Source of the DNA: Microbacterium sp. GCS4
GTDB taxonomy: Bacteria; Actinomycetota; Actinomycetes; Actinomycetales; Microbacteriaceae
Length of the DNA stretch: 64,000 nt
Direction: 5' to 3'
NCBI RefSeq assembly: GCF_001262495.1
Contig: NZ_LGYE01000003.1
Coordinates: 372,001-436,000, forward strand
Within the stretch, counting starts at the first letter, position 1, and the number at the start of each line of letters is the position of its first letter. A program made the translations under genes and the position numbers. Below the pieces are notes generated by a model. It worked only from the letters and a program-made list of their open reading frames with translations. It was not told where the DNA came from and ran no database searches. Below, in pieces: positions 5,352 to 43,745 of the stretch.

Positions 5352-6170
5352 TCAGGGCAGCTGCCAGGGGAAGAACGCCGTGAAGATCGCGGCGGAGACG
5401 GCGAGGCACAGGACGATGAACACGGTGTCCCGCGTGCGGAACGGGACCAGGTGCCGTTCGGTGCGGGTCGGGTGCGCACCGAAGGCGCGGGAGTCCATCG
5501 CGAGGGCCACCCGCTCGGCATGACGGATGGCGCCGGCCAGCAGCGGGACGATGTAGCCCCAGCCGCGGGCGACGCGCGCGAACGGGCCATTCCCGCCGTG
5601 ATGGCCGCGGACGCGGTGGGCGGCGCGGATGACCGCGAGCTCGTGCCCGAAGCGCGGCACGAACCGGAACGCCGCGAGGGCCGTGTACCCGATGCGGTAC
5701 GGCACGCGGAGCTGCTGCACGCTCGCCCGCACGAGGTCGGGGCCCGTCGTGGTGACTCCGCCGATCAGGGCGAGCGCGATGATCGTGCCCAGCCGCAGCC
5801 CCGTGGCGAAGCCGATCGCGAGCGCTCCCTGATGCAGCGTCCACGCGCCGATCTGCAGCACGGCGGGGGTGTCGGCCACGAGCGCGGCATCGACCCACAG
5901 CGAGAATCCGACGCCGATCGCGAGGATGCCGAGGGGCAGGATGCCGAACAGCAGCGCCGCGAGGCGCCCCGTGAGCCGTGCACCCACGAGGACCGTCGCG
6001 AGGGCGAGCACGAGGAACGCCGCCGGCGTCGCGAGGTCGCGCACGAAGATGAGGAGCACCATCGCCGGGGCGACGCCGGCGACCTTGGCGAGGGGGTTCA
6101 GGGCGTAGAGGAACTGCCGCGGGGAGGTCGCGACGACGGCGGCATAGGGATCGAAGACGGACGCGCTCAT
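5352..6170 (-). CDS. ECF transporter T component (EcfT/CbiQ-like)
   Basis: The 272-aa integral membrane protein has about five hydrophobic segments and the cytoplasmic coupling region of EcfT proteins. DLVRASVQQLRVPYRIGYTALAAFRFVP (split here as one continuous region, about residues 145-172) and the downstream ALAMDSRAFG carry the conserved Arg-containing AxR motifs that contact the ATPases. It overlaps the end of the ATPase gene by four bases (ATGA). It should link the ATPases to the two S components in the same operon. Confidence 0.88.
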   Translation of the reverse strand: MSASVFDPYAAVVATSPRQFLYALNPLAKVAGVAPAMVLLIFVRDLATPAAFLVLALATVLVGARLTGRLAALLFGILPLGILAIGVGFSLWVDAALVADTPAVLQIGAWTLHQGALAIGFATGLRLGTIIALALIGGVTTTGPDLVRASVQQLRVPYRIGYTALAAFRFVPRFGHELAVIRAAHRVRGHHGGNGPFARVARGWGYIVPLLAGAIRHAERVALAMDSRAFGAHPTRTERHLVPFRTRDTVFIVLCLAVSAAIFTAFFPWQLP

Positions 6171-7957
6171 GGGATCGACTCCCCGGCGGCCGCGAGCACG
6201 CGCTGAAGGGGAGGCAGGCGCAGACCCGCGGCGCGGAACGTGTCCTCCCCGAGGAACAGCGCCGACGTCTCGCCCGCCGCATGCACGCGGCCGTCTCGGA
6301 GGATCAGCGTGTGCGTGGCGTGTTCGGCGACGAGCTGGAGGTCGTGGGTCACGATGAGGATCGTCGTGCCCTCGTCGCGCAGTCCGTGCAGCAGATCGAG
6401 CAGCTCCGACGCCCGGGCGCGGTCCTGGCCGAAGGTCGGTTCGTCGAGCGCGAGGATCCGCGGTCGCGTGATGAGCGCCGTCCCGACAGAGAGCCGGCGC
6501 TTCTCCCCGCCGGACAGCAGGAAAGGATGCACCTCCGCCTTGGCCTCGAGGCCGAACCGCGCGAGCATCGCACCGACGCGCTCGGCGATCTCGGCATCCG
6601 ATGCGTGCCGCAGCCGCAGGCCGTGCGCGAGCTCGTCGAACACCGTGTGCGCGATGAACTGGTGCTCGGGGTTCTGGAACACGAAGCCGATCCGGCTCGC
6701 GAGGTCGCGCGGAGACGCCGCGCCCGGGTCGATCCCGTCGACGACGACCTGGCGCTTCGGCGGCGGGACCACGCCCGCGAGCGCCTGCAGCAGGGTGGTC
6801 TTGCCTGCGCCGTTCGTGCCGACGATGGCCGTGAGGGTCCCCGGTGCGACCTCGAGGTCGACCCCGTGCAGGATCTCGGTGCGCCCGCGCCGGACGGTGA
6901 GGCCGGTGGCGCGGATGATCGGCGTGGTGCGTTTCGTCTCGTCGCTGCGCTCCTCGCGGGGCGACCGGGGCCAGGCCGCCCCGCGAGCGGAGCGAGCGCC
7001 GTGCTGAGCGAGCGCAGTGAGTCCAAGTGACGAAACGCCGTGAGCCGCTCCGCGGTCGCTGGCGCGTTTCGTCTCGTCGCTGCGCTCCTCGCTCAACGAC
7101 CGGGTTGTAGTCAGCGCGGTGGCGAGTTCCTCGGGCGTGAGGGGCAGCGGATCGAATCGTGCCCCGGCATCCTGCATCCGGAGCGCGGCGATCGTGGCGG
7201 CGGGCAGCCAGACGCCCATCGCGAGGAGCTCCTCGACGTGGGTGCGGATGACGTCGGCGGGCGCCCCGTCGAAGGCGACGCGGCCGGACCCGTCGAGCAC
7301 GATCGTCCGGGTGACGAACGACATCGCCGCATCGAGGTTGTGCTCGACGAGGAGGATCGCCCTGTCGCCCGCGGCGATCACATCGGCGAGTGCGGCGTAG
7401 ACGTCGTCGATGCCCTGGGGATCGAGGTTCGCGGTCGGCTCGTCGAGCACGATGAGCGGCGACCCCATCGCCAGCGCGCAGGCGATCGCGAGGCGCTGGC
7501 GTCCGCCGCCGGAGAGCCGGTCGGGGTTCTCGTCGCGGCGCTCCCACAGGCCGACGCGTCGCAGGGCGTCCTCAGTGCGCGCGTGCACCTCGTCGAGCGG
7601 CAGCAGGAGGTTCTCGGGGCCGAAGGCCACTTCGTCGTACACGGTGCCGGTGACGATCTGCGCGTCCGGGTCCTGGAACACCATCGCCACGCGGGTGCTG
7701 AGCGCAGCCGTGAGGGCGTCGGCGGTGTCGAGCCCGCCCGCCGTGACCGTGCCCGTCATGGTCGCGGGAACCGCATGCGGGATGAGTCCGTTCAGCGCGA
7801 GCGTCAGTGTGGACTTGCCTGAGCCGGACGGCCCGAGCAGCAGCACCACCTCGCCGGCGTGGATGTCGAACGTGACGTCTCCGGGGGAGGGGTGCGCGGC
7901 ATCCGCGTGCGTGATCGAGAGGTCGCGCACGCTCAGCAGAGGCTCGGTGGAGCGCAC
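6167..7957 (-). CDS. Fused double ATPase of an ECF transporter, with repeat-derived linker
   Basis: The 596-aa protein joins two ABC ATPase domains. Domain 1 has Walker A GPSGSGKST (K48), signature LSGGGRQRLAIA and Walker B IVLDEPTANLDP. Domain 2 has Walker A GTNGAGKTT, signature LSGGEKRRLSVG and Walker B ILALDEPTFGQD. This is the YkoD-type fusion that powers ECF uptake. The linker (about residues 285-343) is unusual: it is encoded by two direct and one inverted copy of the repeat seen at 25723-25951, giving SEERSDETKR and REERSDETKR. The start is GTG with GGGGTGAT upstream; an iron-box-like dyad lies 39 bp further. It leads the operon ATPase-EcfT-SIP-S component. Confidence 0.9.
   Translation of the reverse strand: MRSTEPLLSVRDLSITHADAAHPSPGDVTFDIHAGEVVLLLGPSGSGKSTLTLALNGLIPHAVPATMTGTVTAGGLDTADALTAALSTRVAMVFQDPDAQIVTGTVYDEVAFGPENLLLPLDEVHARTEDALRRVGLWERRDENPDRLSGGGRQRLAIACALAMGSPLIVLDEPTANLDPQGIDDVYAALADVIAAGDRAILLVEHNLDAAMSFVTRTIVLDGSGRVAFDGAPADVIRTHVEELLAMGVWLPAATIAALRMQDAGARFDPLPLTPEELATALTTTRSLSEERSDETKRASDRGAAHGVSSLGLTALAQHGARSARGAAWPRSPREERSDETKRTTPIIRATGLTVRRGRTEILHGVDLEVAPGTLTAIVGTNGAGKTTLLQALAGVVPPPKRQVVVDGIDPGAASPRDLASRIGFVFQNPEHQFIAHTVFDELAHGLRLRHASDAEIAERVGAMLARFGLEAKAEVHPFLLSGGEKRRLSVGTALITRPRILALDEPTFGQDRARASELLDLLHGLRDEGTTILIVTHDLQLVAEHATHTLILRDGRVHAAGETSALFLGEDTFRAAGLRLPPLQRVLAAAGESIP
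6929..7103 (-). repeat. Dispersed repeat copies inside the ABC ATPase linker
   Basis: GCGTTTCGTCTCGTCGCTGC occurs at about 6929 and again within 7062-7103, the second copy running on through CTCGCTCAACGACCGGG. A degenerate inverted copy lies at about 7010-7044. All three are read through in frame as part of the ATPase linker. The same unit occurs at 25723-25951 and 43611-43688. Confidence 0.8.
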
Positions 7958-8049: not shown

Positions 8050-8592
8050 TCAGCGGCGGGCGACGCCGGCGCGGCTGAGGGCGGTGCCGACGGCCATGCC
8101 CACGGCGGTCCAGGCGATCGGACCCAGCACCGAGAGCACGAGGTAGGCGATCTGCGCCCAGAGCGGCTGCACGCCGAGGTGCGCGGCGAAGAACACCACG
8201 ATCGCGACGAAGACGCCGATGACCGCGGCCGAGAGGAAGAACCGCCATGCGCCCCAGGCCCGGTAGCGGGTGAGTGCGGCGACGCCCTCCTGGATCGCTC
8301 CGAAGAGCAGGGCGGTGCCGAGGAAGCGGAGCGTCCACGCGGGGTTGAAGGCGCTCGCGATGAGCGCCGCGATCACGTGCGTCACCAGGGCGACGAGCGG
8401 ACGTCGGAGCACTTCCTGCGCGATGATGCCGGGCAGCACGTGCGAGCCGAGCACCAGGCCGTACAGGAATGCCGGCCCGGCGAGGACGGGCAGTGTGACC
8501 CAGCCGGCGATGCCGCCGAGGATGCCGGTCGCGACGCCGATGGCCGCGCAGACGAGCAGCACGCGTGTCGTGAGAAGAGGGGTACGGGCCAC
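8050..8592 (-). CDS. YkoE-like ECF transporter S component (second copy)
   Basis: The 180-aa protein has about five hydrophobic segments and resembles the first S component (3812-4468) in order and motifs: LRRPLVALVTHVIAALIASA parallels LLRRPLVGLLVG, followed by an amphipathic Arg/Trp segment (YRAWGAWRFFLSAAV). The start is GTG. It is 92 bp upstream of the ATPase gene, with the iron-box-like dyad between them, so it may have its own promoter or be the first gene of the operon. Two S components sharing one energising module is common among group II ECF systems. Cargo is unknown. Confidence 0.78.
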   Translation of the reverse strand: MARTPLLTTRVLLVCAAIGVATGILGGIAGWVTLPVLAGPAFLYGLVLGSHVLPGIIAQEVLRRPLVALVTHVIAALIASAFNPAWTLRFLGTALLFGAIQEGVAALTRYRAWGAWRFFLSAAVIGVFVAIVVFFAAHLGVQPLWAQIAYLVLSVLGPIAWTAVGMAVGTALSRAGVARR

Positions 8593-8750: not shown

Positions 8751-11700
8751 ATGGTCAGGACGGGGTGGGGCCGCCGATTCGGCGCGGCCGGGGCGGCAGT
8801 AGCACTCGTTGCGACGGGGATCGTCGTGCTCGACGACGACTCGTCGGCGGTCGCGGCGGTGTACGCGCAGTGCCAGAACCAGGACTCCCTCGACTGGGCA
8901 TCGCTGCCGGATCGCTCCTCTCCCACGACCGTCACGGGCGACGGCGTGACCTACGCCCTCACCCGCGACGATCAGGCACCCGTCACCGGGAGCCCCGCGC
9001 CACCCCAGGTCGACTACGCCACCGTCAAGACCGCCGTGCAGGGCAATCGCTCGGGGTACTACTCGCTGGCGATGGATCCCCGGAACCTCACCGATCACGA
9101 AGAACTGATCCTCACTCCCGACAACCCGGTCGCCGGGTTCGAGCTCACACTCCTCGACGTCGACATCCGCACGGACGGCGGCAACTACCGCGATGTCGCC
9201 GTCGTGAGCGCGTCGCTGCGCGGCACTGCGGTCACGGCCACACCCTCCGCGCTCGGCAGCGCCGTGCAGTACTCCACCCGAGCCGACGGCGCGGCAGTCG
9301 TCACCGGCATCGCCTCCGCCGACAACACCAGTGAGAACGCCAACGCGACGCTGGCCTTCCCGAGCCCCGTCGATCGCATCGTGATCCGCTACGAGACGGG
9401 GGCTCCTCCGCTCGGCGGCAACAACCCGACGCAGCAGCTGATCGGCATCGACGACTTCCGCTGGTGCGGGCTCTCCACCGGGGTCGCCAAGTCCGTCTCC
9501 GCGGCCACCTTCGACAGCGGTCACTACACCGTGAACTACGACTACACGCTCGAGAACAACGGCGGACCCGGCGGCTTCGATCCGCAGATCGTCGAGGACC
9601 TCGCCGCACGATTCGGCACCTACGTCTCGGGAACGCCGACCGCGAGAGGGACCTACACGGTCGGTGCGACCACGATCGTCACGAACTCCGTCATCCCCGT
9701 GTCGGCGTCGGCAGGATTCACCGGTTCAGGCACGAGCAAGGGCATCCTGACGCCCGGGGTCGGTGCCCTCGGCTCCGGCGAGAAGATCGTCGTCCGTGTG
9801 CCGGTCACCTTCGTCCCGGCGGCCCTGCCCTTCTCCGTCACCAACCAGGTCACCGGCACGCTCGACTACTTCGCCCACGACAACGGGACGGTCGAGGGCG
9901 ATCAGACCGACCGGTCCACGAACGGCTCGAACCCGGATGCCGACGGCGACGGTCATGCCGACGACGATGGGGCCACCACCCCGCTGACCATCCAGGGCAC
10001 ACCGGTCATCGACCTCACGGTCACGGACGATGCGGGTGGCCGAGCCCGTGAGGGCGAGTCGGTCAGCTTCACCTACACCGCGGTGAACCGTGGCGACGTG
10101 CCGCTGACCGGGGTCACGATCGACGGCGCGACGCCGGCGCTCGTCTGCACCCCTGCCCAGCCGGCGGCGGTCCCGGTGGGCGGGCGTCTCGTGTGCACGG
10201 GCACCCGCGTCGTGGGGGCACCGGACGTCGCGCGAGGCGTCCTCGTCGAGTCGCCGACCGTCACCGCGCAGTCCACGGTCGGCTCAGCCCGCGACGCCGA
10301 CACGGATACGGTGCCCGTGGTGCCGAACCCCGTCGCCCAGCCCGACACGGGGAACGGGGCGCAGGGTCAGCCCCAGCGCATCGACCCGCTCGCGAACGAC
10401 ACCCCGGGAGCCGCAGAGGTGCCGCTCGACCCGGCGACCCTCCGCCTGCTCGACGCCGACGGCCAGCCCACGGAGCGGCGGGTCGTCGCCGGGGAGGGCG
10501 CGTACGAGATCGATCGCGCGGATCCGCAGCGACCGGTCGTCGTCTTCACGCCCGAGCCCGGTTTCGCGGGCACGGCGACTCCGATCCCGTATCGCGTGGC
10601 CGATGGTGACGGCATCATCGCGAGATCGACCATCACGCCTGCGGTCACCCCTCAGGCGCCCACCGCGGCACGTGACGAGACGTCCGGTCCGCAAGGGATC
10701 GCCCAGCGGATCCGGCCCCTCGACAACGACACGGCAGGGCACCCCTCCGTGCCGATCGACCCGACGACGTTCACACTCCTCGATGCCGCCGGTTCGCCTG
10801 CCGCGTCCGTCACGGTCCCGGGGCAGGGCGTCTACACCGTGGAGTCCGGTCCGCAGGGGCCGACCGTGGTCTTCACGCCGCAGCCGGACTTCGTCGGCGC
10901 CGCCGTGCCGGTGTCGTACCGGATCGCCGACAGCCGCGGCGCGACCGCCACGAGCACGTATGCGCCGACGCTCACCGCCGTCACGCCCGTCGCGACAGCC
11001 GACACCGGCGAAGCACGCCAGGGCGCTCCCGCACGCATCCCGCTCCTCGCGAACGACCGGCCGGGCGACCCGGCCGTGCCGCTGGTCCCCGTGACCACGA
11101 CCCTCCTGACTCCCGAAGGGGTGCCGGCCGACACGGTGACCGTCCCCGGTGAGGGGGTCTACACGCTGGAGAACGGACCGGACGGACCGACCGCGGTCTT
11201 CACCCCCGAGCCCCGCTTCGCGGGCACACCGACCCCCGTCGTCTACCGGGTCGCGGACGCCAACGGCACCACGGTGACGGCGACCGTCACCCCGCGGATC
11301 GTCGCGGTCACGCCGACCGCGTCACCCGACACGACGACCGGAATGCAGGGTCAGCAGCAGCGGATCGACGTCACGACCAACGACACCCCGGGTGATCCCG
11401 GCGTCCCGCTGGACCCCGCGAGCGTCACCCTGCTGCAGAACGGGGAGCCGGTGCGAGAGATCGTGACCGCCGGTGTGGGCACATACTCTCTCGGGCCGTC
11501 GGGGACCATCATCTTCACGCCCGAAGCCGCCTTCAGCGGTCCCGCGCCCGCCGTGGCGTATCGGATCGCGGACGCGAACGGTACGACGGCGGAGTCGACG
11601 TACACGCCCACAGTGACGGCTGTGGTGCCGGTCGCGAACCCCGACCAGACGACAGGGCGACAGGGAGCCGTGCAGCAGATCGATGTCTCGCTGAACGATG

Positions 11701-14700
11701 CCGCGGGCGATGCCTCCGCACCCCTCGTGCCGGCATCCGTCCAGCTGCTGAACGCGAACCGCGAGCCGGTTGCCGAAGTGGTCGTCGACGGAGTCGGCAC
11801 GTACTCGCGCGGTGCGGGCGGAGTCATCGTGTTCACGCCGCTCCCCGCGTTCACGGGTGACGCTCCCGGAGTGCCGTATCGGATCGCGGATGCGAACGGC
11901 ACGACGGCGGAGTCGACCTACACCCCGACTGTCACCCCGGTGACGCCGACGGCGAATCCCGACGCGACGACAGGCCCGCAGGGTCAGGCGCAGCAGATCG
12001 ATGTGTCGACGAACGACGCCGCCGGCGATCCGGCCGTTCCGCTCGACCCGGCGTCCGTGCAGCTGCTGAACGCTGCAGGTGAGCCGGTGGCCGAGGTCGT
12101 GGTCGACGGAGCCGGGACCTACACGCGGGGCACCGGTGGAGTGATCGTGTTCACACCATTGCCGGACTTCGTCGGCACAGCCACGCCGGTGCCGTATCGG
12201 ATCGCGGATGCGAACGGGACGTTCGCCCGCTCGACGTATACCCCGACCGTCACACCAGCCCCGGGCGTTCCCGTGGCGGCACCGGATGCGACGACGGGTC
12301 CGCAGAATCAGCCGCAGCGGATCGACGTCTCGCTCAACGACACCCCGGGCGATCCGGCCGTTCCGCTGAACCCGGCGTCCGTGCAGTTGCTGAACGCGGC
12401 GGGCGAGCCCGTCACCGAGGTCGTGGTCGATGGTGCGGGCACGTATACGCGCGGTGCGGGCGGGGTCATCGTGTTCACGCCACTGCCGGAGTTCACGGGG
12501 ACCGCTGCCGCTGTGCCGTATCGGATCGCGGATGCGGATGGCGTGACCGCGGAGTCGACGTACACCCCGACCGTGACCCCGGTCGTCCCGACGGCGTCGC
12601 CGGATGCGACGACGGGCCCGCAGGGTCGGGCGCAGCAGATCGACGTGTCGACGAACGATGCTCCGGGTGCTCCGGACGTGCCGCTCGACCCGGCGTCAGT
12701 GCAGCTGCTGAATGCGGCGGGTGAGCCGGTCGCGCAGGTCGTCGTCGACGGTGCGGGCACGTACACGCGGGGCGCGGGCGGAGTGATCGTGTTCACCCCG
12801 TTGCCCGAGTTCACGGGCACGGCGACTGCGGTGCCGTATCGGATCGCGGACGCGAACGGGACGTTCGCCCGTTCCACGTACACTCCGACGGTGACCCCGG
12901 TCGTCCCGACGGCATCGCCGGATGAGACGTCCGGCCCGCAGGGGCAGGCGCAGCAGATCGACGTGTCGGCCAACGACACCCCGGGTGCCGAGGACGTGCC
13001 GCTCGATCCCGCAACCGTGCAGCTGTTGAACGCGGCGGGTGAGCCGGTCGCGCAGGTCGTCGTCGACGGCGCCGGCACGTACACGCGCGGTGCGGGCGGA
13101 GTCATCGTGTTCACGCCGTTGCCTGAGTTCGTCGGCACCGCGACCGCTGTGCCGTATCGGATCGCCGATGCGAACGGGACGTTCGCCCGCTCCACGTACA
13201 CCCCGACGGTGACTCCGGAGCCGGGTCGGCCCGCCGCCCTCCCGGACACCTCGACGGGCCCGCAGGGTCGGGCCCAGCAGATCGACGTCTCGCTCAACGA
13301 CACCCCGGGCGATCCGGCGGTGCCGCTGGATCCCGCGTCCGTCGAACTGCTGGATGCTGCCGGGAACCCCACGACGGAGGTCGTGGTCGACGGCGCGGGG
13401 ACCTACACCCGGGGTGCGGGCGGAGTCATCGTGTTCACGCCGCTGCCCGCGTTCACGGGCACGGCGCCGGGTGTGCCGTATCGGATCGCAGACGCGGACG
13501 GCGTGACCGCGCAGTCCACCTACACCCCGACGGTGACCCCGGTCGTGCCGACGGCCTCGCCGGACGCGACGTCCGGCCCGCAGGGTCAGGTGCAGCAGAT
13601 CGACGTGTCGGGCAACGACACCCCGGGCGCCGACGATGTGCCGCTCGATCCTGCATCCGTGCAGCTACTGAACGCAGCGGGTGAGCCGGTCGCGCAGGTC
13701 GTCGTTGACGGTGCGGGGACGTACACCCGAGGCGCGGGTGGGATCATCGTGTTCACGCCGTTGCCCGAGTTCGTCGGCACCGCGACCGCTGTGCCGTATC
13801 GGATCGCGGACGCGAACGGGACCTTCGCCCGCTCGACCTACACCCCGACGGTGACCCCGGAACCGGGTCGGCCGGCGGCGCTCCCGGACACCTCGACGGG
13901 TCTGCAGGGCGCGGCGCAACAGGTCGACCCCCTGCGCAACGACACTCCCGGTTCCCCGGACTCCCCGTTGGATCCCGCCACGACGACCCTGATCGACGAC
14001 GACGGAGATCCGGTCGGCACGGTCGCAGTGCCTGGCGTGGGCGAGTACACCATCGAGCGCCCGAGCGGCGAGAGCAGGATCGTGTTCACGCCGGATCCGA
14101 GCTTCTCCGGCACGGTTCCGGCCGTCACCTACCGGGTGTCGGACTCGGAGGGAGTCACCGCGCAGTCCACGTACACGCCGACGGTGACCGCAGTGACCCC
14201 GATTGCGACCCCCGACACGACGACGGGAGTGCAGGGTGAGCCGCAGCAGGTCGACGTGTCCGCAAACGACACGGCCGGTCATCCCTCGGTTCCGCTGACG
14301 TCTTCCTCCGTCACCTTGCTGAACGCCGACGGGCAGGTGGTCCCCCAGCTCGTCGTCGACGGGATCGGCGCCTACTCGCGCGGATCAGGTGGCGCTGTCG
14401 TCTTCACCCCCGAACCGGACTTCGTGGGAGCGGCCCCGCCCATCCGCTACCGCATCGCCGACGCGAACGGCACGACCGTCGAGACGACCTACACGCCGAC
14501 CGTCACGCCGACACCCCGTCCGGCTGCCTCTCCTGACACGTCGAGCGGACGCCCGGGCGAACCCCAGAGCATCGACCCGCTCTCCAACGATCGCGCCGGC
14601 AGCCCCGCTGTCCCGCTCGACCCGTCGACGCTGGTGCTCCTGCAGCAGGACGACACCCCGACCGCTCGAATGGAGGTGCCGGGGGTCGGCGTGTTCATCG

Positions 14701-25714: not shown

Positions 25715-25722
25715 TCGCAACC

Positions 25723-25951
25723 GGTCGTTGAGCGAGGAGCGCAGCGACGAGACGAAACGCGGTGAGGAGTCGTACGGACCTCACCGCGTTTCGTCTCGCT
25801 CCGCTCGCTCAACGACCGGGGTGCTCACCGCGTTTCGTCTCGCTGCGCTCGCTCAACGACCGGGGTGCTCACCGCGTTTCGTCTCGCTCCGCTCGCTCAA
25901 CGACCGGGGTGCTCACCGCGTTTCGTCTCGCTGCGCTCGCTCAACGACCGG
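25723..25951 (+). repeat. Tandem array of a dispersed Microbacterium-type repeat
   Basis: A first copy (25723-25766; starts GGTCGTTGAGCGAGGAGCGC) is inverted relative to four tandem 44-bp units starting at 25780, 25824, 25868 and 25912. Each unit runs from CTCACCGCGTTTCGTCTCGC to GCTCGCTCAACGACCGG. Units alternate C and G at one position (CGCTCCGC / CGCTGCGC). The head-to-head copies can form a long hairpin. The array lies between the convergent subtilase and pirin genes and may terminate both. Confidence 0.9.
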
Positions 25952-34406: not shown

Positions 34407-37400
34407 ATGGCGAAATTCGGAGGGGCGGGACTGCGTAGGCGCAGGGCCGCAGGAGCAGGACTGGCGGGCGCGATCGCCGCGGCCGTCGTCCTCGCAGGAG
34501 CACTGGTTCCGACGGCGGCGACAGCCGCGCCGGGCGACCAATCGGCGTCGAGCTCGCGGTTCCTGAGCGGCAGTCTGCTGCTCGGAGGAGTGCCGCTCGA
34601 CGACGTCGTGGCGCTCGGCGGATCGTCGACCAGCAACGCGGGTTCGCCGACGCCCGACACCGAGACGAGTTCGCTCGATCTCACAGCGTTGAACGCGCTG
34701 CAGCTCGGCATCCCCGGCGGCCTCAGCGTGCCGCTGTCGAACTTCGTGCAGCTCGGCGCCGTGAACCAGTACTCGCAGTCCTCCGACGCGGGCGTCTCGC
34801 GCGCCGCAGCCGGTGCCGTGAGCGATTCGGGCGTGATCGACACGACCGGCACCGGCGCCTATCCGTCCAACGCGTCGTTCAACCTCCAGGGGCTCCTCGG
34901 CTCCGCCGTGACCGGCACGGTCGCCGACCTCGACATCTCGCTCGAGGCGATCAGCTCCGAGGTCGCGATCGACTCCGCGGGAGCCGTGACGCGGGACTAC
35001 AACGTGGCCGGTGGCGACGTCGCGCTGTCCTTGCCGGCGATCGCGACGCTCACGAACACGCTCACCGGTCCCGGCGGAGTCACCGCGACCGTGGACGCTG
35101 CCGTCGCGAGCCTCGCCGGTCCGAGCGGACTGCTCGCGCAGGCCCTCGCAGGCCTCAACGCCGCGCTCGCTCCCATCGTCGGCAACGACGGCGTGAACAT
35201 CACGATCACGACCGACATCGCGGCCGCCATGAACACGATCCTCGACACCCCGGTGGGCGACGGGGTCGTCAGCGTGAACCTCCGCACCGGACTCGTGACC
35301 GCCGATATCGCCGCGCTGTTCTCCGACACCACCGGCCGTGGTCTGAACAACCTGAACGTGGGCGAGGAGGTGCTGTCGGCCGCCGTGCTGAACAACCTCA
35401 TCACCCGCGTCGGGAACGTGCTGAACACGGTCCCGAACCTCGTGCAGACCGCGCTGACGAACACGCTCAACGCCGCCGTGCTGAACATCGGCGTCGCGGT
35501 CTGCGTCGTCGGCACGGCCCCGACCTGCACCACGCCGGTGGTCGACATCGGCACGGGTCTGCAGGTCTCGGTCCCGAACCAGACCCTCGGCAGCGTCGTC
35601 GCCGGAACAGCGACCGCGACGATCTCGCTCAAGGTCGCCGGGCTCCCGGTCGTCGTCCCCGTGGGCACCCTGCTCGGCGCCCTGACGACGCCCATCAACA
35701 CGACGCTCTTCGGCCCGACGGGCGTGATCGCGACGGTCGTGCCGACCGTCACCACCGCGGTGACCGGGATCGTCACGGCGATCGCCCCCGCGGTCGGTCT
35801 CCTGAACGGCGTGGTCTCGCTGCGCGGCAACGTGCAGCCCGACAACGGCCCGATCTTCAGCGAGGAGGCTTTCGTCCTCACGGTCGGCGACATCCTCGGC
35901 ACCGGGGGTGTCGGCACGATCGCCCTCGCCCGCGCGCAAGCCGGACCGAACGCTCTCGCCGACGCACCGACCGTGGATGCCGCCGCGACCGTGCAGGCGG
36001 GCGACGACCTCGCCGTCACGGGCGCCGGCTGGCCCGCGAACACCGAGGTGTCGGTGCAGCTGACCGCTCCGGGCGGTGGAGCGAACGTCGGTGGTCCTGA
36101 GACCGTCACGACCGACGGCACAGGCGGCTTCACGCTCGCGTACCCGGTCCCTGCGGGAACCCCCGCCGCGACCGGTTACACGGTCACGGCCACCGACGGC
36201 ACCTCCACGGCCTTCGACACCACAGACGTCACGGCAGCCCCCGCTACCGTCGACGCGGCGCCCGCTGTGCAGGCGGGCGCCGACCTCGCTGTCACCGGCG
36301 CCGGATGGCCCGCGAACACCGAGGTATCGGTCCAGATGACCGCCCCGGGCGGCGGCGCGAACGTCGGCGGACCCGAGACGGTCACGACCGACGGCACGGG
36401 CGGTTTCACGCTCGCGTACCCGGTTCCTGCAGGCACTCCCGCCGCGACGGGGTACACGGTGACCGCGACTGCCGGGGCCGTCACGGCCACGGATACGACC
36501 GAGGTCACGGACGCCCCCGTCCCGACCGTCGACGCGGCTCCGACCGTGCAGGCGGGCACCGACCTCGCGGTCTCCGGCACCAACTGGCCCGCGAACACCG
36601 AGGTGTCGTTGCAGCTCACCGCCCCGGGCGGTGGCGCGAACGTCGGCGGCCCGGAGACGGTCACGACCGACGGCACGGGCGCCTTCACGCTCGCCTACCC
36701 GGTCCCTGCAAGCGCGGCGGCCGGCACGGGTTACACCGTGACGGCGACCGCGGGCGCGCAGACCGCTATCGACACGACCGACGTCACGGCAGCGGCCACG
36801 GTCGACGCGGACGACACCGTGCAGGCGGGCTCGGATCTCGGCATCACCGGTGCCAATTGGCCTGCGAACACCGAGGTGACGGTGCAACTCACCGCCCCAG
36901 GCGGCGGCGCGAACGTGGGCGGGCCCGAGACGGTCACGACCGACGGCACGGGCGGCTTCACGCTCGCCTACCCGGTGCCCGCCGGCACGCCGGCAGGAAC
37001 GGGCTACACGGTCACGGCGACCGTCGGAGCGCAGACCGCGACCGACACGACCGCCGTCACCGCGGCACCCACGGTCGACGCGGCCGACACGGTCGAAGCC
37101 GGGTCCTCGCTCTCGGTGACGGGTTCCGACTGGCCCGCCGACACCGAGGTCACGGTGCAGCTGACCGCACCCGGCGGTGCCCCGATCGGCACGCCGCAGA
37201 CCACGACGACCAGCGGACTCGGCGGCTTCACGCTCGCCTACCCCGTGCCCGCAGGGACCCCTGCCGGGACGGGCTACACGGTCACGGCGACAGCCGGTGC
37301 GGCGACCGCGGTCGACACCACCGAGGTCACGGCCGCGCCCGTCGTGCTGGATGCCGCGGCATCCGTGCCCGCGGGCACGAACCTCGCGGTGACCGGCTCG

Positions 37401-39290
37401 GGCTGGCCCGTGAACGCCACGGTGTCGCTGCAGCTGACCGCCCCGGGCGGCGGCGCAAACGTCGGCGGCCCCGTGAGCGCGACGACGGATGCGTTCGGCG
37501 CCTTCTCTGTCAACTACCCCGTGCCGGCAGATACGGCACCGGCCACCGGGTACACGCTGACCGGCACCTCGGGGGCGGTCACGCAGACCGACACCGTGGA
37601 GGTCACGGCGGGCGACCCGGCCGACGTCAACACCAACGCGGCGGCTTCGGCCTCGGCGTCCGCAGATGCCACGGCCGACGGCGACCCCTCGGCACAGGCG
37701 GCGGCAGAAGCGGCGGCCCTCGCGGACGCCACCTCCGCGGCCTCGGCCGCTGCCACGGCGGACGCGTCGGCGGCTGCGGTCTCGGCGGCCACGACGGACG
37801 CCTCGACCACGGCCACGACCGACGCGACGGCGGCAGCCAACGCCTCCGCGGCCGTCGCCGCACAGGCAGCGGCGCAGGCCGACGCCTCCGACGACGCGAA
37901 CGCCGCAGCCTCCACGGCCGCCGACGCCAACTCGGCCGCCTCGTCCGAGAGCGCGGCGACCGCGGATTCCTCCACGAACGCCTCCTCGGAGGCCTCGACG
38001 AACGCGAATGCGGCGGCCTCGGCATCCGCGTCCGCGAACGCCGATGCCTCGACCGACGCGGTCGCCGAGGCGGCCGCGCAGGCGGCGGCCTGGGCGGATG
38101 CTACGGCGGAAGGCTCCGCTGCGGCGAACCCGGCGGCGGAGGCGGCGGCGCAGACCGCGGCGACCGCCACCTCGTCGACGGATGCCACGGCTGATGCCAC
38201 GTCGGCGGCGAACGCCGGGGCCGCGGTCGCGGCACAGGCGGCAGCGCTCGCGGATGCGACGAGCACGACGGCGGCGCAGGCCTCCGCCACGTCCGACGCG
38301 AGCACGAGCGCCGCATCGAACGCCAGCGCGGCGGCCCTCGCCTCCGCCTCGACCGACGCGTCGTCCGATGCCGTCGCCTCCGCGGATGCGGACGCCGACC
38401 CCTCGGCGGAGGTCAACACCAACGCCTCGGCGTCGGCGGCGGCCTCGGCGCAAGCCGACAGCGACGCGAACGCGGTCGCCGAGGCGGCGGCGGTCGCTGC
38501 GGCCCTGGCCGATGCGACCAGCAGCGCCTCTGCGGCGGCCGACGTGACGGCGGATGCGGCGGCCTCGGCCGCGGCGACCACCGACGCATCGACGGACGCC
38601 TCCTCGACCGCCACGACCGACGCGAACGCCTCGGCGGCCGCGGCGGCGCAGGCGGCGGCGCAGACGGACGCGACGTCGACCAGTGCCGCCGACGCCTCGG
38701 CTGCGGCGACTGCGAACGCGAACGCGTCCTCGGCCGCGGCGGCGAACGCCTCGGCGTCCGCGACGGCATCCTCGTCGGCAGCGGCAGACGTCTCCGCCGA
38801 CGCGACGGCAGAAGCCTCCGCGACCGCGACGTCGACGGCCTCGGCATCCGCGTCCGCCGACGGGAACGCCGCCGCGAACCCCGGAGCGCAGATCGGCATC
38901 CGGGTCGTGACGCCCGTGCTCGAGCGAGGAGATCAGCAGACCGCGATCGGCACGGGATTCCAGCCCGGCGAGACGGTCACGGGGCTCATGACCTCCGCGC
39001 CGCTCGCGCTCGGCAGCCGCATCGCCAACGCCCAGGGCGAGGTCACGTTCACGTGGACGATCCCCGCGGACACCGACCTCGGCACCCACACCGTCACGCT
39101 GACGGGGGCGACATCCGGAGCCGTGTCGACGACGTTCCAGGTCGTGGCATCGGGCCTCGCCACCACCGGTGGAGACGTGCAGACGGGATGGGTCGCGCTC
39201 GCGGCTCTCCTGCTCCTGATGGGTCTCGGCGCCGTCCGTCTCGGTCGTCGCCGAGCGCAGACCGTCGCAGCCGACCGCATGGTCGAGTAG
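34407..39290 (+). CDS. Choice-of-anchor G-like surface protein with Ig-like repeats, low-complexity stalk and LATTG signal
   Basis: The 1,627-aa protein has a signal peptide (about 15-41) and an N-terminal region (about 50-515) like the choice-of-anchor G family (SSRFLSGSLLLGG, LSVPLSNFVQLGAVNQY). Six Ig-like repeats of about 90 aa follow (about 520-1070), each with LAVTGAGWPANTEVSVQLTA and TLAYPVPAGTPA. Residues about 1072-1494 are an Ala/Ser/Thr/Asp-rich stalk. One more Ig-like domain precedes the sorting signal LATTG (1584-1588), a hydrophobic helix and RLGRRR. It should be wall-anchored by a class E-type sortase, the stalk holding the head away from the wall. GGGAGAGG precedes the ATG. 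Confidence 0.85.
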   Translation: MAKFGGAGLRRRRAAGAGLAGAIAAAVVLAGALVPTAATAAPGDQSASSSRFLSGSLLLGGVPLDDVVALGGSSTSNAGSPTPDTETSSLDLTALNALQLGIPGGLSVPLSNFVQLGAVNQYSQSSDAGVSRAAAGAVSDSGVIDTTGTGAYPSNASFNLQGLLGSAVTGTVADLDISLEAISSEVAIDSAGAVTRDYNVAGGDVALSLPAIATLTNTLTGPGGVTATVDAAVASLAGPSGLLAQALAGLNAALAPIVGNDGVNITITTDIAAAMNTILDTPVGDGVVSVNLRTGLVTADIAALFSDTTGRGLNNLNVGEEVLSAAVLNNLITRVGNVLNTVPNLVQTALTNTLNAAVLNIGVAVCVVGTAPTCTTPVVDIGTGLQVSVPNQTLGSVVAGTATATISLKVAGLPVVVPVGTLLGALTTPINTTLFGPTGVIATVVPTVTTAVTGIVTAIAPAVGLLNGVVSLRGNVQPDNGPIFSEEAFVLTVGDILGTGGVGTIALARAQAGPNALADAPTVDAAATVQAGDDLAVTGAGWPANTEVSVQLTAPGGGANVGGPETVTTDGTGGFTLAYPVPAGTPAATGYTVTATDGTSTAFDTTDVTAAPATVDAAPAVQAGADLAVTGAGWPANTEVSVQMTAPGGGANVGGPETVTTDGTGGFTLAYPVPAGTPAATGYTVTATAGAVTATDTTEVTDAPVPTVDAAPTVQAGTDLAVSGTNWPANTEVSLQLTAPGGGANVGGPETVTTDGTGAFTLAYPVPASAAAGTGYTVTATAGAQTAIDTTDVTAAATVDADDTVQAGSDLGITGANWPANTEVTVQLTAPGGGANVGGPETVTTDGTGGFTLAYPVPAGTPAGTGYTVTATVGAQTATDTTAVTAAPTVDAADTVEAGSSLSVTGSDWPADTEVTVQLTAPGGAPIGTPQTTTTSGLGGFTLAYPVPAGTPAGTGYTVTATAGAATAVDTTEVTAAPVVLDAAASVPAGTNLAVTGSGWPVNATVSLQLTAPGGGANVGGPVSATTDAFGAFSVNYPVPADTAPATGYTLTGTSGAVTQTDTVEVTAGDPADVNTNAAASASASADATADGDPSAQAAAEAAALADATSAASAAATADASAAAVSAATTDASTTATTDATAAANASAAVAAQAAAQADASDDANAAASTAADANSAASSESAATADSSTNASSEASTNANAAASASASANADASTDAVAEAAAQAAAWADATAEGSAAANPAAEAAAQTAATATSSTDATADATSAANAGAAVAAQAAALADATSTTAAQASATSDASTSAASNASAAALASASTDASSDAVASADADADPSAEVNTNASASAAASAQADSDANAVAEAAAVAAALADATSSASAAADVTADAAASAAATTDASTDASSTATTDANASAAAAAQAAAQTDATSTSAADASAAATANANASSAAAANASASATASSSAAADVSADATAEASATATSTASASASADGNAAANPGAQIGIRVVTPVLERGDQQTAIGTGFQPGETVTGLMTSAPLALGSRIANAQGEVTFTWTIPADTDLGTHTVTLTGATSGAVSTTFQVVASGLATTGGDVQTGWVALAALLLLMGLGAVRLGRRRAQTVAADRMVE
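37621..38890 (+). repeat. Low-complexity Ala/Ser/Thr/Asp stalk coding region
   Basis: About 420 codons are almost only GCN, TCN/AGC, ACG, GAC and AAC. The protein has irregular short motifs such as AEAAALADATSAAS and AAQAAAQADAS recurring at about 40-60 residue intervals. The DNA is very GC-rich and long frames exist in all directions; only the plus frame joins domains on both sides. Confidence 0.85.
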
Positions 39291-43610: not shown

Positions 43611-43688
43611 GCGTTTCGTCTCGTCGCTGCGCTCCTCGTTCAACGACCCTTCTCCCGGTCGTTGAGCGAGCGAAGCGAGACGAAACGC
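43611..43688 (+). repeat. Inverted pair of the dispersed repeat
   Basis: One copy (43611-43648, GCGTTTCGTCTCGTCGCTGC to CAACGACC) faces an inverted copy (43657-43688, GGTCGTTGAGCGAGCGAAGC to GAAACGC) across CTTCTCCC. Together they can fold into a long hairpin just after the acyl-CoA oxidase stop, so they may terminate transcription. Confidence 0.85.
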
Positions 43689-43745
43689 GCCGACGACCGT
43701 GAGCGGGCACAGTTCCGACCTCAGCGGCGTAGGTAGGGTCGAGGC

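Follow-up and report, generated by a model that had tools for sequence, protein, structure and literature searches.

In-frame copies of a REP-like palindromic repeat in the interdomain linker of a fused ECF transporter ATPase of Microbacterium

How does a dispersed repeat that mostly lies between genes come to be translated as part of a protein? This question is raised by a fused energy-coupling factor (ECF)-type ATPase with two ATP-binding cassette (ABC) domains, which is encoded on the minus strand at 6167..7957 of a 64,000-nucleotide stretch of the Microbacterium sp. GCS4 genome (contig NZ_LGYE01000003.1; the whole stretch is hereafter the window). The gene has a GTG start and encodes 596 amino acids in an open reading frame (ORF) without internal stop. 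Both halves exceed the curated cut-offs of ECF ATPase models (TIGR04520, 355.3 bits against a cut-off of 315, residues 9-282; TIGR04521, 356.3 bits against 330, residues 360-589), so the protein matches both ATPase models of ECF transporters. Between the first domain (7109..7957, residues 1-283) and the second (6170..6925, residues 345-596), both on the minus strand, lies a repeat-derived linker (6926..7108, minus strand, residues 284-344). With high confidence, we interpret this linker as one outcome of the recurrent, nearly neutral in-frame capture of palindromes resembling repetitive extragenic palindromic (REP) sequences into a permissive site.

A preliminary description of the locus had claimed that the linker is built from three copies of the repeat, which add two SEERSDETKR-like stretches without breaking the frame. 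Profiles built without the linker copies agreed with this, locating two direct copies of the dispersed hairpin repeat and one inverted, decayed copy at 6928-7104. Copy 1 (7061..7104, minus strand, 54.9 bits) belongs to variant A, reads RSLSEERSDETKR and matches the genomic consensus of that variant exactly over 44 nt. Copy 2 (7004..7041, plus strand and thus inverted relative to the gene, 13.0 bits) is a decayed CACTT variant whose complement is read by the gene as GVSSLGLTALAQH; a pattern written from it matches three further places in the genome, with 0, 1 and 3 mismatches. Copy 3 (6928..6969, minus strand, 36.6 bits) reads RSPREERSDETKR and represents the CCCCGCGAG sub-variant of variant A, which recurs at two further loci (L116 and L120). 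The peptide EERSDETKR accordingly occurs twice, at residues 290-298 and 335-343. Chance scores reached at best 7.0 bits in same-genus domain pieces (176 pieces from 88 genes), 9.2 bits in the domain pieces of a second set and 10.9 bits in shuffled linkers (100 x 88, none reaching 14 bits), such that copy 2 taken by itself is just above the shuffled maximum. The variant-A pattern, at up to three mismatches, matched the genome 49 times versus 0 for a reversed-pattern control, and the variant-B pattern matched it 84 times. The best explanation of the window linker is that it holds one fresh and two older copies of the repeat.

The ATPase could be read in 90 of 119 genomes searched, and two linkers (L091 and L097) were dropped because their domain ends overlapped, leaving 88. 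The repeat was found at 14 bits or more in 20 of these 88 same-genus linkers versus 0 of 176 domain pieces. A tree was then assembled by adding the named genomes, removing ten duplicates and including seven outgroups; of its 119 rows, 23 feature a hit of at least 14 bits, all of them Microbacterium, while 96 do not. This distribution requires at least 17 state changes on the tree, or 20 when different frames and strands are scored as separate states. The repeat has been captured on both strands and in four reading frames, which are represented among the 34 hits of at least 14 bits by SLSERSETKR (14 hits), VSSRCARSTT (12), VVERAQRDET (4) and RFVSLRSLND (4); of the two remaining frames, the one containing a TGA stop and the sixth, neither has any of the 34. 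In two species, Microbacterium murale (L159, 77 aa) and the species of genome G028 (L062, 131 aa), linkers have been enlarged through tandem duplication of repeat-bearing units.

Finding the same linker in distant genera would have made it ancestral, but no such case was seen. The named genomes and the family provided 104 linkers, 71 of them without a Microbacterium label; one (L173) proved identical to a same-genus linker, leaving 70 loci from other genera or without an assignment, at least four of these loci being duplicate retrievals of the same gene. The repeat is absent from all 70, with no score as high as 5 bits, and we therefore reject an ancestral origin of the repeat-bearing linker. 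The corresponding expectation, that close relatives would have linkers lacking the repeat, was borne out by Microbacterium sp. H83, whose two domains are 88% and 82% identical to those of the window protein around a 26-aa linker, and by G001 (86% and 82% identity, 44-aa linker). Neither linker contains the repeat, and neither genome has a hit to the strict pattern.

Linker copies also tend to occur where the repeat is abundant. Using a pattern that tallies some copies twice, the median number of genomic hits was 46 in linker-positive genomes (n = 20) versus 0.5 in the others (n = 68; P = 4e-7, kinship ignored). The close named relatives span this range: H83 has neither linker copy nor genomic hit, and Leaf320 has a fresh linker copy and 54 genomic hits. 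In 3J1 and MYb62 the linker copies are decayed (21.6 and 12.1 bits, respectively), and the genomic hits number 0 and 1. This pattern fits copies being captured while the repeat is abundant and decaying thereafter.

Several points weigh against in-frame capture as read here, or against a simple rule linking it to abundance. Two repeat-rich genomes, G008 (190 hits) and G045 (142 hits), have no linker copy, and four linker-positive genomes (G077, G060, G079 and G023) have just 0, 1, 2 and 3 strict hits, respectively; because of this scarcity, their linker copies may be old or belong to other sub-types. No empty site was seen within the same species, and linker lengths vary too much for the exact insertion point in the ATPase to be read. 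The count of state changes comes from a FastTree topology whose support values were unused and from a parsimony that lumps gains and losses, with L091 and L097 kept in the tree and scored as repeat-negative despite having no readable linker.

The repeat family itself was characterized in the source genome by a census of 73 stretches, comprising the window and 72 stretches fetched around pattern matches (8 variant-A loci and 64 stretches), a part of the genome in which a simple codon model, trained on the window, supplied the gene calls. With a profile threshold of 18 bits, 166 distinct copies were identified, of which 138 are intergenic, 23 lie within 14 predicted genes and five overlap a gene end. 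The repeat is short (units of ~35-45 nt), dispersed and present in many copies, as is typical of REP-like elements. The intergenic copies lie between convergent (64), tandem (65) or divergent (7) genes or at a stretch end (2). Convergent genes flank 28 of 63 typed repeat-bearing intergenic regions versus four of 62 repeat-free gaps taken from the 72 fetched stretches (P = 1e-6), and divergent genes flank three of 63 versus 20 of 62. The location is thus downstream of genes with few copies between divergent ones, again as in REP-like elements, and so is the occurrence of opposite-orientation pairs able to fold, which were recognized by reading at many loci. The repeat has a stop codon, TGA, in just one of its six frames, the other five being open. 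In all five genes whose ends are overlapped (L104, L007, L114, L137 and L138), this TGA is the gene's stop codon, so the repeats also set protein C termini.

The preliminary description had considered the repeat to be otherwise intergenic, and this did not hold: in the stretches examined, 13 predicted genes besides the ATPase carry it in coding sequence. Copies are located between domain models in a fused Dpp-type ATPase, CydD (L269:509-2173), IleS (L286:3-2657) and HrpA (L276:1-2994), and inside a domain model in a DEAD helicase (DUF3516 part), MenB (L133:993-1925) and a DUF993 protein. A cytochrome b561-like protein has a copy near its N terminus, and C-terminal tails contain copies in a ResB-like protein, an ABC ATPase and a GntR/FCD regulator. 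A further gene, at L116, received no name from Pfam (1e-5) or NCBIfam (1e-20). The tail of the ResB-like protein (L134:1344-3098, minus strand) is a tandem array in which VSSRSARSTTG-like units alternate with VSSDSSRSTTG-like units.

KdpB (L121:660-2876, minus strand, contig C3 of the source genome) is the clearest case of insertion, and the exact insertion point is readable there. Its copies, three scoring at least 43 bits, are located between the two matched parts of the protein in an 85-residue loop. Orthologues were sought in 20 genomes, three of which gave no close KdpB; of the 17 orthologues read, 10 have a loop of 7-14 residues and seven a longer one of 21-77. G001 and Leaf320, at 93% and 96% identity on the two sides of the loop, have a loop of 8 aa. 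G005, which is among those with longer loops, carries the repeat in the opposite orientation at that loop. At the repeat sites of MenB and IleS, a loop of much the same length is present in the solved homologue shown, and these are therefore better described as loops partly made of repeat than as clear insertions. IleS is a protein usually considered essential, which suggests that even such proteins tolerate capture of the repeat.

Several features of the ATPase linker point to little constraint on its amino acid sequence. In a sample of eight species pairs, five of them repeat-bearing, the ratio of nonsynonymous to synonymous differences per site (pN/pS) was 0.49-1.38 for the linker (in the seven of eight pairs with a defined ratio) versus 0.06-0.25 for the domains. 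An AlphaFold model built from a 30-row alignment predicted residues 303-342 to be disordered (predicted local distance difference test, pLDDT, below 50), with both domains mostly above 85; a helix was predicted for residues 275-303, which include copy 1, and mean block values here were 80, 67 and 61 as far as residue 300. The repeat peptide is thus probably a tolerated spacer. Selection on the charged peptide SEERSDETKR itself, for instance for binding a partner or regulating ATPase coupling, would agree with SLSERSETKR being the commonest frame, but the other three frames account for 20 of the 34 hits, 96 tree rows have no 14-bit hit at all and the linker pN/pS values argue against it, so we regard such selection as very improbable. 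A somewhat better candidate, still an unlikely one in our judgement, is that the hairpin is kept for its effect on the mRNA, where its structure would slow ribosomes and allow domain 1 to fold before domain 2, such that any palindrome would suffice. The linker mRNA of the window (6926..7111, minus strand) is predicted to form strong hairpins from its inverted copies (-99.2 kcal/mol, z -3.64, equalled by 0 of 200 shuffles), and, across the genus, folding is stronger for linkers than for domain pieces (median z -1.28, n = 87, versus -0.07, n = 435; P = 3e-8, kinship ignored). Unrelated palindromes also sit in the same linker. Against this, 24 of the 87 linkers have z above 0, including five that bear the repeat (L019, L023, L042, L067 and L087), and KdpB loops and C-terminal tails, like the ATPase linker, bear repeats.

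Other long palindromes were found in linkers of the genus that do not contain this repeat (L081, L065, L038, L025 and L047). The palindrome of the G013 linker (L081) recurs at 12 other places of the G013 genome, in two cases over just 25-30 nt, and has relatives in G010 and G059 and none in G011 or G113. For the palindrome in the G113 linker, relatives occur in G011 and G059, with none in G029; its dispersal within G113 is weak, as only two further places match there. A third type (CACCTGCAGGG...) occurs in other species both in ECF linkers and in KdpB loops. A further alternative is that the repeat made the fusion, with two separate ATPase genes merging once an intergenic repeat lying between them no longer contained stops. 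This is in keeping with the commonly intergenic position of the repeat, but fused orthologues without it occur in other actinobacterial genera, Chloroflexi and Paenibacillus, so the fusion is older and we reject this origin as next to impossible. As both fusion and linker are old and widespread, the repeat enlarged the linker and did not create it. The proposal that a repeat had turned into coding linker sequence is supported for the repeat; the linker predates it, and the window represents one of many captures across the genus. Separate production of domain 2 from an internal start was also considered and rejected: the sole ATG, GTG or TTG codon across residues 279-352 is a TTG at residue 288, within copy 1, and none occurs in the ATPase reading frame at residues 289-352. 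With no start codon between residue 289 and domain 2, the simplest route to this domain is translation through the repeats.

The favoured account remains the nearly neutral capture of palindromes. The identity of the repeat, its frame, its absence from relatives, its recurrence and the weak constraint on the linker can all be read from the sequences, and on this basis we propose that a REP-like Microbacterium repeat, often present as inverted pairs near gene 3' ends, would occasionally be copied into coding DNA. Copies would arrive from genomic repeats by insertion (transposition) or gene conversion and would persist where the peptide falls in a disordered linker or surface loop and the frame is maintained. 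The linker of the fused ECF ATPase would be such a permissive site, having received many captures that differ in frame and orientation and derive from at least two palindrome families, and the transporter presumably still works. More tentatively, and with somewhat less than even confidence, several unrelated families of spreading hairpin repeats may broadly supply Microbacterium with new protein sequence, with certain loops and linkers filling, decaying and refilling as the repeats of each species wax and wane. The recurrent acceptor sites would be the ECF ATPase linker and the KdpB loop, and perhaps the DppDF and CydD linkers.

The ATPase gene is followed by an ECF T component of the CbiQ family, a likely partner permease (5352..6170, minus strand, PF02361, 8.4e-26), and preceded by a PF09819 protein (8050..8592, minus strand, 4.3e-12), which we take to be the likely substrate-binding S component. 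Together, the three proteins presumably resemble a YkoEDC-type vitamin-precursor transporter. The window protein therefore shares two ECF ATPase domains and T component and PF09819 neighbours with fused double-ATPase ECF transporters, which we assume to be the YkoD type, and is unusual among them only in its repeat-derived linker. Elsewhere in the window, gene calls place two repeat arrangements in intergenic DNA: one variant-A copy facing four head-to-tail inverted 44-nt copies (25721..25951) and an inverted pair (43611..43690). No Rfam RNA element reached the gathering threshold in the window. Two coding-size ORFs contain long tandem repeats, with eight units of 318 bp at 11311-13860 and 5.4 units of 273 bp at 35988-37473.

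The in-frame capture of palindromes is already known. Rickettsia palindromic elements (RPE) are described as dispersed palindromic repeats lying in frame within many unrelated protein genes (PMC10969869, PMC3733652). The Microbacterium repeat is comparable in being in frame in 14 unrelated predicted genes, a likeness of description that makes no claim of RPE membership, and differs in its ~35-45 nt unit, its mostly intergenic location and its use of four frames in linkers. The second of these sources also covers GTAG- and CGTC-tagged REPs, which are short hairpins forming opposite-orientation dimers between convergent or unidirectional genes. Some of these lie inside ORFs, some provide a stop codon, and two Xanthomonas species have different REPs at roughly the same recB site (PMC3733652). 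CGTC-tagged REPs have the CGTC tetranucleotide at one end and a unit stem of 8-9 bp, GTAG REPs are linked to REP-associated tyrosine transposases (RAYTs), and Actinobacteria are not among the phyla listed there as having GTAG or CGTC repeats (PMC3733652). Our repeat resembles intragenic REPs as a short hairpin with inverted pairs, some in ORFs and some supplying a stop, but it differs from the GTAG and CGTC types in its actinobacterial host, in the lack of a detected Y1 transposase (PF01797 only) and in one linker having been hit in 23 species. GTAG is absent from both strands of the two repeat consensus sequences, and CGTC is present in GTTTCGTCTCG near one putative end of the repeat. PF01797, the single transposase family searched, had no match in G000 and was found in five of 14 control genomes. 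With neither the GTAG tag nor a PF01797 match, a RAYT-mobilised GTAG-REP was rejected. Among the titles listed for Microbacterium or this sequence in one open-access literature library, none pointed to a repeat of this kind.

New here are the occurrence in an actinobacterium, the negative search for a Y1 transposase and how many captures a single linker has received. In-frame capture of palindromes, known in Rickettsia and in the REP-rich genomes of other phyla, is thereby extended to Actinobacteria. The fused ECF ATPase provides a natural replicate series on the conversion of non-coding repeats into protein, comprising 23 species, one site and several frames and families of palindromes, and offers a rare chance to test the neutrality of such inserts.
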